This document shows, one piece after another, positions 5,154-16,749 of a stretch of 51,979 nucleotides of DNA. The notes beneath the pieces were generated by a model. That model ran no database searches, was not told where the DNA came from, and saw nothing but the letters and a program-made list of their open reading frames with translations. Made by a program: the position numbers and the translations under genes. Origin of the DNA: Blastococcus sp. CT_GayMR19 (GTDB lineage: Bacteria; Actinomycetota; Actinomycetes; Mycobacteriales; Geodermatophilaceae). The DNA lies in NCBI RefSeq assembly GCF_004570385.1, contig NZ_SPQL01000021.1, positions 1-51,979 of the forward strand, in the 5' to 3' direction. How positions within the stretch are numbered: the first letter of the stretch is position 1; each line of letters begins with the position of its first letter.

Positions 5154-6152
5154 TCACATCGGAGCGGAGCCGTCCTGGTCGCCCGATCCTCCGGCCCGCC
5201 CGTCGACATCCGTCGACGACGAGAACTCCCGGTGCGACTCGGGACCGTCGGCCTCGACGAGCAGTCGAAGTGCCGCTTCGACCACCGCCCGCTGACGCGC
5301 CCGGTCACCGACCGGGCCGATCGTGCGGCCCATGAGATGGGGCGTGACGAGTACCCGTGGCACACGCAGCCGCCCTGCAACGTGTGCGAAGACCCGGCTG
5401 AACACCGACACCGTGGGGATCCCTGCCGCCTCGAGGGCGCGTGCGACGAGTCCGACCGACCCGTGGCACACCGGCTAGGTCGCGACGAGCAGGCAGGCAT
5501 CCACCCCGTCGGCCCGTAGTCGCTGCGCCCACTCCGGAGCGACCTGCTCCCGAAGCCTCACCTGGGAAGTGGCGCCGGTGAAGGCGAAGTGGTCCTCGGC
5601 AAGGACGAACGCGCCCTCGGCCGCCATCTCGCGCAGGACCGCCAGCGGGAAGACGGTCCCCGGATCCCGCTGGGCGGTGCGCGCGTCGTAGCCGGGATGG
5701 CGGGCGGTGATCGCTGAGTCCGGCGTGTCCTTCGGGATGACCGAGAGCGTCGGGGCGCCTCGCAGGAAGTCCTTGATCATCGTCAGCGACTCCTGCTGGG
5801 TCGGCCCGTCCGGGCCCATCGGGTCGTCGTCGACGCGGAACACTCCGCCCGCCGACATCAGCGCCAGCCGCAGGTTCGCCAGCTCCCCAGGCAACGGAGC
5901 GAACGGCGCGTCGTCAACCGTCGGGGCACTGTCCTCCGCATAGGCCGCGACCTGCGCCTCGTACACCGCCTGACCGACCGCAGCCAGGTCCCCCGTGTCG
6001 AGGGCCTCTCCCAGCCGGGCCAGGACGCCCGCGACGGCGTCGGCGGCCGGTTCGTCGTCCATCCTGGCCAGGAACTTGAACTGCATGTCCGAGTACCGGC
6101 CGTAGTAGAAGGATTTCCGGAAGTCCTCGAACGTCATGGGGTGCTCAGCCAT
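5154..6152 (-). CDS. Selenoprotein B (GrdB/PrdB-like) family protein, Sec encoded by UAG
   Basis: Read through an in-frame TAG (5477-5475), this is a 332-residue protein with the TAG as residue 226. The part before it (MTFEDFRKSFYYGRYSDMQFKF...) and the part after (PVCHGSVGLVARALEAAGIPTV...) belong to one family, the glycine/betaine/sarcosine/D-proline reductase selenoprotein B-like proteins. From memory, members carry U-P-V-C-H at this place, normally with UGA for U. Here it reads T-[TAG]-P-V-C-H, so a UxxC redox motif results. A SECIS-like hairpin starts three bases after the TAG. Conventional calling would give a truncated 225-residue protein. It is the last gene of the leftward catabolic set, 120 bases after the HIBADH-like gene; its reaction in aerobes is unknown. 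An alternative ATG lies at 6137. Confidence 0.88.
5439..5471 (-). promoter_or_regulatory. SECIS-like hairpin after the UAG codon of the selenoprotein B-like gene
   Basis: In the mRNA (minus strand), GUGUGC (5471-5466) pairs with GCACGC (5444-5439). After a symmetric two-by-two internal loop, CGGGUC (5463-5458) pairs with GACUCG (5452-5447), closing a five-base loop GGUCG (5457-5453). The loop begins 17 bases after the UAG. As I recall E. coli fdhF, its SECIS has a loop AGGUCU also 17 bases after the Sec codon, so position and the GGUC core agree. Pairing was traced by hand. Confidence 0.75.
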
Positions 6153-15555: not shown

Positions 15556-16749
15556 GTGGTCGACAGAGCGCCCAACCTGCTCGGGAACGACGCGCGTCCC
15601 CGGTTCTTCCCCGTGGCGGATCCTGGCGATCTCGGCCTGACCCCGCCGCCGGACCGGCACGGGACGGCGGTGCGGGTCTGGGCCAGATCGCTGGCCGGGA
15701 TGCAGAAGGAGGTCCTGGTCTCCACCACCCTCGGGGATCCCGCCTGGCGCCTGGTCAGCGACGAGGGGAGCGATCTCAACGGCTACGACGAGGGACCGTT
15801 CCCGCTGGGGCACATGGCTGCCGGGATGGTCGCCTCGTACACGAACGAGCTCGTGGCGCTGGCGCACCAGCGTGGGATCGAGCTGCGCGACCTGCGGCTG
15901 ACCTTGGACAACTACTACACGATGGAAGGCTCCGCCCTCCGCGGGACCATGATCGGGGGTGCGCTCCCACCCGAGCTGTCGCTGGAGTGCACCTCGGATC
16001 TCGATGCCGACGGTCTGCGTGGCCTGGTCTCCGATGCGGTGCATGCCTCGCCGGTCAACGCGCTGCTCCGCCAGGCACTCGTCAGTGCCTTCACGCTGAC
16101 CGTCAACGGCGAGCGTGGCGACCCGGGTCGCGTGCCCGAGCTGGGCAGCGACTGTCCTCCTGACCCCGACGGCAGCTTCGTCGAGGCTCGAGTGGCCTCG
16201 AGCGAGGTGTCGCAGCCGCTCGTGGAGCTCCTGCCAGAGCCCGCATCGGACGACGCCGGTGACGGCGGCGGTCTGACGGAGACGCAGAACCGACGCCTCC
16301 ACGTCCGCGCGGTGTGCACGATCCGGGACGACGGCGTCAAGGAGATCACCGCACACCTGCGCAGGCCCGCGGGCGCGCTCTTCCGCTTCCTGTCCGACGA
16401 ACCCGCCGGTCCCGGCCGGCCCGCCCGAGCCCCGGACGCCGCAAGCTACGTCGCGGCAGGTATCGCCTTCTGTTTCATGACCCAGTTCGGCCGGTACGCG
16501 GCGATCACCAAGAAGAAGCTCGAGACGTACCGCCTGGTCCAGGACCTGCACCTGCCGATGGGCGGCGCCTCGGGCGCCACGGGCACGGCCGGCAACGCCG
16601 ACCCGGTGGAGACGCACGTCTACCTGGAGACACCGCACGGCCACGAATTCGGTCAGCTGGCCCTGGCCATGAGCGAGCAGACCTGTTTCCTCCACGCGGT
16701 CTGCCGCACGGCCCTCAAGACCCGGATCCGTGTGCTCGCCCGGAGGTGA
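15556..16749 (+). CDS. Double OsmC-like domain protein
   Basis: A 397-residue protein with two consecutive OsmC/Ohr-type domains, the fold of peroxide- and hydroperoxide-reducing proteins with paired cysteines. The second domain has the Cys-containing helix AAGIAFCFMTQF and a later Cys pair region (EQTCFLHAVC). The equivalent helix of the first domain (GHMAAGMVASY) has Met instead of Cys, so it may have lost activity. The GTG start 15556 has AAGGAG five bases upstream and begins VVDRAPNLLGN. It sits between the transporter and its LacI regulator; its role in the pathway is unknown. Confidence 0.8.
   Translation: MVDRAPNLLGNDARPRFFPVADPGDLGLTPPPDRHGTAVRVWARSLAGMQKEVLVSTTLGDPAWRLVSDEGSDLNGYDEGPFPLGHMAAGMVASYTNELVALAHQRGIELRDLRLTLDNYYTMEGSALRGTMIGGALPPELSLECTSDLDADGLRGLVSDAVHASPVNALLRQALVSAFTLTVNGERGDPGRVPELGSDCPPDPDGSFVEARVASSEVSQPLVELLPEPASDDAGDGGGLTETQNRRLHVRAVCTIRDDGVKEITAHLRRPAGALFRFLSDEPAGPGRPARAPDAASYVAAGIAFCFMTQFGRYAAITKKKLETYRLVQDLHLPMGGASGATGTAGNADPVETHVYLETPHGHEFGQLALAMSEQTCFLHAVCRTALKTRIRVLARR

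Follow-up and report, generated by a model that had tools for sequence, protein, structure and literature searches.

In the genome of the soil actinobacterium Blastococcus sp. CT_GayMR19, a gene of the GRDB/PrdB superfamily appears to be intact and to use UAG, in place of the usual UGA, as its selenocysteine (Sec) codon, which would be decoded by a tRNA-Sec with the anticodon CUA, together with SelA, SelD and SelB and a hairpin downstream of the codon. We give this reading a probability of roughly 0.9. The computed evidence comprises the reading frame, conservation of the codon, the tRNA, the sel genes, covariation in the hairpin and selection on the encoded protein. The gene lies on the minus strand at positions 5154..6152 of the window, the term used here for the whole stretch of 51,979 nucleotides that was analysed, which is the complete contig C16 of the 4.57 Mb genome (G000). 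It runs from an ATG at 6152-6150 to a final TGA at 5156-5154, and spans 332 codons with TAG read as Sec. The TAG (5475..5477, minus strand) is the sole interruption of this frame; it follows 225 codons, is flanked as LLVAT-[TAG]-PVCHGSVGL, and stands at residue 226 as the U of a UxxC motif, U226-P-V-C229. A preliminary description of the sequence had noted two halves of one protein in the same frame, split only by this codon, and had proposed an intact gene with a 332-residue UxxC product. Frame and flanks are as described there, and the proposal of an intact gene is supported by protein models that match across the codon, the conservation of TAG and selection on the codons that follow it.

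The machinery for such decoding is found in the same genome. The best match to tRNA-Sec scores 66.7 bits (cut-off 47) and has the anticodon CTA (CUA in the tRNA); a second match above the cut-off is a tRNA-Ser. Beside the tRNA-Sec(CUA) lie selB (302.5 bits, cut-off 242), selA (421, cut-off 268) and selD (386, cut-off 125). Both the tRNA and these three genes had been named in the preliminary description as things to look for. The program ARAGORN labels this tRNA (L001:1497-1592) as tRNA-Pyl, and automatic annotation could mislead on genomes of this kind. A second gene in the genome, a member of the UGSC family (L242, G000:C41:180901-182400), has TAG at the U of UGSC, with a hairpin after it. 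UAG also terminates genes, although rarely: among genes of at least 150 residues found with a simple caller, 40 in the window have TGA and two have TAG, the Sec codon itself included, and around the sel locus ten end in TGA and two in TAG, selB among the latter. In the proposed mechanism, Ser-tRNA-Sec(CUA) would be converted by SelA using selenophosphate made by SelD. SelB would then deliver the Sec-tRNA to the UAG at residue 226 because it is proposed to bind the hairpin after the codon as well, and UAG elsewhere would terminate.

Homologues of the protein were matched in 7 of 112 genomes of Geodermatophilaceae and in 79 of 396 genomes drawn from the phylum. Across the 38 loci that cover the Sec column, out of 39 that were taken (L011-L049; the fragment L020 lacks the site), the codon is TAG in seven, TGA in 30 and TGC in one (L047). 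The TAG copies come from the genome described here, G015 and G004 (one each), and G104 and G043 (two each). An orthologue in G104, Modestobacter sp. DSM 44400, is 75% identical across the TAG and has TAG at the same codon. Homologues free of in-frame stops carry TGC in all seven loci (six new places and L047 again). The named UGA orthologues belong to Nitriliruptoraceae, Nitriliruptorales and Euzebyales MAGs, with TGA in 13/13 that cover the site (L214 has no coverage there). Those of the Nitriliruptoria (L201-L213) are 61-71% identical and share the motif, but theirs is encoded by UGA rather than UAG, and they often lie beside a deiodinase-like selenoprotein or sel genes. Alignment with UGA homologues and the presence of Sec or Cys at the site, both raised in the preliminary description, thus have clear outcomes: TGA stands at the same residue in 30 of the 38 loci, TAG or TGA in 37 of them, and TGC in the seven Cys homologues.

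The codon follows the anticodon of the genome in which it is found. A search for tRNA-Sec in 28 homologue-bearing genomes gave CUA in five (G000, G004, G015, G043 and G104, which hold all of the TAG copies) and UCA in 20; in G067, G489 and G252 no tRNA-Sec was found and only tRNA-Ser came up. Wherever the anticodon was read, TAG copies lie in CUA genomes (7/7) and TGA copies in UCA genomes (20/20). With four deiodinase-like copies included, the table holds 10 TAG with CUA, 21 TGA with UCA and no exceptions, leaving out the copies of G067, G489 and G252 and of genomes not searched for tRNA-Sec; its Fisher test ignores relatedness, and the TAG copies are not independent because all are from one bacterial family.

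Within that family, a CTA anticodon-arm pattern is present in 101 of the 112 genomes and a TCA pattern in G066, G068, G069 (g5), G070 (g6), G072-G074 (g7) and G058. Two TCA matches with two mismatches (G020 and G076) are taken for chance, and neither pattern was found in G067, G071, G097 and G098, which are 72-82% complete. Genomes of the family with UCA carry TGA, in the PrdB-like gene of G066 and the deiodinase-like gene of G070 (L218), whereas deiodinase-like homologues in the CUA genomes G085 and G019 (L215, L216 and L221) carry TAG. A switch of codon is therefore visible inside a single family. The PrdB-like copy of G067, where tRNA-Sec was not found, has TGA. The UGSC family (PF24696) has 95 matches in 54 of the 112 genomes: 72 have one in-frame TAG, 23 are free of stops and none has TGA, and all 18 TAG loci that were fetched have their TAG at the U position of UGSC. 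Formate dehydrogenase was considered as a further UAG gene and set aside: of 30 TIGR01591 loci, the 28 from CUA genomes carry TGC at the position compared, and the two from g7 genomes carry TGA. The TGC copies are 33-37% identical to the TGA ones, and the comparison therefore neither confirms nor denies the reported UAG formate dehydrogenases. Two further observations were made in the family. A stop-free fragment in G104 (L126:3027-3140) matches residues 272-308 of the selenoprotein in unrelated surroundings and is likely the remnant of a second copy, and G013 (L078, L243; 88% complete, many contigs) has two different tRNA-Sec(CUA) genes, by duplication or mixed assembly.

A hairpin of the SECIS type follows the Sec codon at 5439..5471 on the minus strand. 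Its apical 7-bp helix (5464-5458 with 5452-5446) starts ten bases after the codon and closes a GU-containing loop, GGUCG (5457-5453); the lower helix is weak. Covariation in the helix is strong. Across 37 Sec-type sequences (35 distinct), pairing occurs in 93.5% of cells, six of the seven pairs are changed on both sides, and the covariation score was reached by none of 500 shuffles. When the partner strand was slid by one to three columns, pairing fell to at most 48%, and the score, 0.473 in register, dropped to 0.107 or less. All seven pairs are formed in 30 of the 37 sequences (243 of 259 pairs overall), with just three or four of seven in the TAG/TGA homologues L016, L017 and L019. The hairpin is degraded in the seven Cys homologues, which keep 30 of 49 pairs and have at least one broken pair each. 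Its thermodynamic stability is unremarkable, with z-scores of -1.32, -2.26 and 0.02 when the window was cut in three different ways, and is no evidence by itself.

Selection on the downstream half bears directly on the possibility that the TAG is a true stop, produced by a sequencing error, a recent nonsense mutation or the decay of the gene. That explanation has the standard code behind it, and UAG does end other genes here, including selB. Against Modestobacter sp. DSM 44400, however, Ka/Ks is 0.14/0.82 before the TAG (150 codons) and 0.10/0.76 after it (75 codons). The low Ka after the codon indicates that selection acts on the downstream half as protein, and the codons that follow TAG are under purifying selection. 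This second genome has kept TAG at the same codon at a Ks of about 0.8, five more distant copies have it too, and the hairpin is kept. A true stop is highly improbable, and the error or recent mutation about which the preliminary description had been cautious does not account for a TAG that is conserved in this way. It is scarcely credible that two proteins are made, with termination at TAG and restart at the GTG two codons further on (5471-5469), since GCT replaces this GTG in the TAG orthologue of G104 and residue 226 lies inside one continuous domain of the predicted structure. Pyrrolysine at UAG can practically be dismissed despite the label given by ARAGORN: the CUA tRNA carries a long variable arm, where the available part of the source gives tRNA-Pyl three bases; it exceeds the cut-off for tRNA-Sec and sits among selA, selB and selD; and in homologues the site is occupied by UGA or Cys. 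The reading of TAG as Sec that was first put forward from the sequence is supported by the tRNA-Sec(CUA), the sel genes, the TGA and Cys homologues, the conserved TAG and the hairpin; Sec would then be present in the protein, apparently in its active site.

Protein models match on both sides of the codon. The NCBIfam model for D-proline reductase PrdB (TIGR04483) spans residues 76-301 and other GrdB-type models span residues 148-298, in both cases across the TAG, whereas the Pfam GRDB model (PF07355) covers residues 75-225, up to the TAG, with 47.3 bits against a superfamily cut-off of 22. The score for TIGR04483 is 94.2 bits, below the equivalog cut-off of 300, and that for the GrdB model TIGR01917 is 60 bits against 602. 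By sequence the protein is therefore classed as PrdB/GRDB-like and, by the NCBI cut-off, not as D-proline reductase PrdB. The family named in the preliminary description, selenoprotein B of the PrdB/GrdB type, holds at the level of the superfamily and not as PrdB proper. The Blastococcus protein resembles PrdB and GrdB in the family match, the UxxC motif and the Sec site; it differs in falling far under their equivalog cut-offs, in having about 75 additional residues at the N-terminus, and in that no pyruvoyl-type partner (PrdA/GrdE-type) was found among the scanned neighbour genes. It also has a weak match to UGSC (PF24696) over residues 198-262 (19.3 bits, under the Pfam cut-off of 25). UGSC is likewise encoded with UAG in this genome, but as a separate gene with the motif UGSC instead of UPVC. 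An AlphaFold2 model, built from 15 sequences with C standing in for U, has a mean pLDDT of 85.4 and would place the motif at the start of a helix within an alpha/beta domain. In it, residue 226 follows a predicted strand (219-224) and precedes a predicted helix (227-242), and the mean pLDDT of these blocks is 89-98. Fold searches with the model returned generic alpha/beta matches only.

For the function of the protein, a role in thiol redox chemistry is somewhat favoured because relatives of the gene adjoin sel genes, a deiodinase-like selenoprotein or thioredoxin, and because of the UxxC motif. In 6 of 15 loci (L205, L208, L210, L211, L212 and L213; Nitriliruptoria) a deiodinase-like gene, FGSFT-[TGA]-PYC (T4_deiodinase, 33.6 bits), lies directly upstream, and in L214 it lies 1.7 kb upstream. 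In three Nitriliruptoraceae genomes the PrdB-like gene or its 3' end adjoins tRNA-Sec, and in two of these selD, selA and selB then follow (assigned by sight). In G400, genes for a thioredoxin, an ECF sigma factor and a zinc-finger protein are just upstream of the homologue. The deiodinase-like gene is absent from the Blastococcus genome, which counts against a redox role. The chemistry would most likely be a thiol-dependent reduction, in detoxification or redox repair, and not a Stickland-type reduction of D-proline or glycine. The accessible text of PMC2398784 and PMC1088965 describes UxxC selenoproteins of the PrdB type as frequent in data sets from seawater, and the family is therefore not confined to Stickland fermenters; the marine proteins share the UxxC motif but use UGA.

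An unlikely, though serious, alternative is that Sec is inserted and the protein serves the adjacent catabolic operon, in a reductive step on an imported compound, and not general redox defence. The gene lies on the same strand as, and downstream of, HisD-like, amidohydrolase, Gfo/Idh, cyclase and HIBADH-like genes, and the GRDB superfamily includes substrate-binding reductase subunits, as far as the accessible sources describe it. Against such a role stand the gap of 120 bases to the HIBADH-like gene, the missing PrdA/GrdE-type partner among the scanned neighbours, and the score of 94 bits against the 300 set for PrdB. Furthermore, when 26 window genes were compared by tblastn with 21 orthologue loci (L009, L107-L126; several are short contigs), cimA and the HIBADH-like, cyclase, Gfo/Idh, amidohydrolase and HisD-like genes were not found there. 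Other matches in these loci were generic: an XDH-type one in L107, transporter ATPases, an acyl-CoA synthetase-like gene and a second HIBADH-like gene. A function based on the operon was set aside after this comparison, and the aerobic catabolic setting noted in the preliminary description, being without counterpart beside orthologues, is unfit for inferring function. Elsewhere in the window, just after ABC transporter genes, 15556-16749 encodes a 397-residue protein with an OsmC domain at residues 77-174 (Pfam OsmC, 42.6 bits).

Close relatives of the gene are rare in the family, with near-full-length matches to this subtype in just 2 of the 112 genomes. A 20-row tree joins the two TAG proteins (92/96) and places this pair with three Nitriliruptoraceae (80/81). 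Probably a UGA user related to the Nitriliruptoria was the source of the gene, whose codon changed afterwards; this step is likely, with moderate support.

One genome of the family, G058, seems from its sequence to use UGA as well as UAG for Sec. It has a tRNA-Sec(CUA) (L134:9832-9927) beside selB, selA and selD (assigned by sight), and its UGSC gene (L245) has TAG. On another contig, a tRNA-Sec(UCA) (81.8 bits, L124:1169-1263) lies about 0.3 kb from an AhpD-like gene (L124:1579-2166) in which an in-frame TGA occupies the position of the second cysteine of CxxC, where 19 of 19 compared family homologues have TGC, and a perfect 7-bp hairpin follows. The AhpD-like protein passes TIGR01926 (112.6 bits, cut-off 81.8) and fails the CFYU selenoprotein model NF041238 (51.7, cut-off 175). 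Insertion-sequence genes are near this UCA cassette. A search of plasmids with the first 12 kb of the contig matched 62 records, and the annotated rows among the matches listed are transposases. The GC content is 0.61-0.72 over the first 18 kb and rises to about 0.76 in the same contig; this profile and the insertion-sequence genes fit an integrated island better than contamination. Also near the UCA tRNA, a frame at L124:4493-5464 continues over an in-frame TGA (WQY-[TGA]-MAVNRAS), which may mark a UGA selenoprotein or just an upstream stop; it has no Pfam or NCBIfam match. We regard as evenly poised a history in which a change of anticodon shifted Sec from UGA to UAG in the Geodermatophilaceae, selenoprotein genes adapted one codon at a time, and UGA genes acquired horizontally, the PrdB-like gene among them, were converted to UAG. 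G058 would then have regained a mobile UGA cassette, with tRNA-Sec(UCA) and a CFYU AhpD-like gene, and would now use both codes, perhaps with one selA-selB-selD set.

UAG as a Sec codon was reportedly found in Geodermatophilus and Blastococcus by Mukai and co-workers (2016), as the preliminary description stated. The accessible text of PMC5330540 and PMC10778597 states this for Geodermatophilaceae, and the former gives CUA as the anticodon of their tRNA-Sec. The CUA tRNA-Sec, the sel genes and a UAG at the Sec site followed by a hairpin are alike in the Blastococcus gene and in that account; the UAG selenoproteins named in the same text belong to other families (formate dehydrogenases, UGSC proteins and an AhpC), with no GRDB/PrdB-family gene among them. 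The available portions of PMC13188914 and PMC9312934 make no mention of natural UAG-encoded Sec. In the open-licence literature, to the extent of its accessible text, neither a GRDB/PrdB-type UAG case nor a bacterium in which UGA and UAG alike encode Sec was found. UAG-encoded Sec in Geodermatophilaceae is thus already known, and the GRDB/PrdB family looks like a new case, as far as checked.

If this is true, a redox-type selenoprotein family joins the short list of natural UAG-coded selenoproteins, and standard annotation would split the PrdB-like gene into two pieces. Relatives both within the family and beyond it have UGA at this position along with a tRNA anticodon to match, so the set of homologues is a natural experiment on the movement of a recoded codon. 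It bears on changes in SelB or the hairpin, on competition with release factor 1 versus 2, and on the adaptation of horizontally gained selenoprotein genes. An intermediate state becomes testable through the relative in which both codons seem to be in use.
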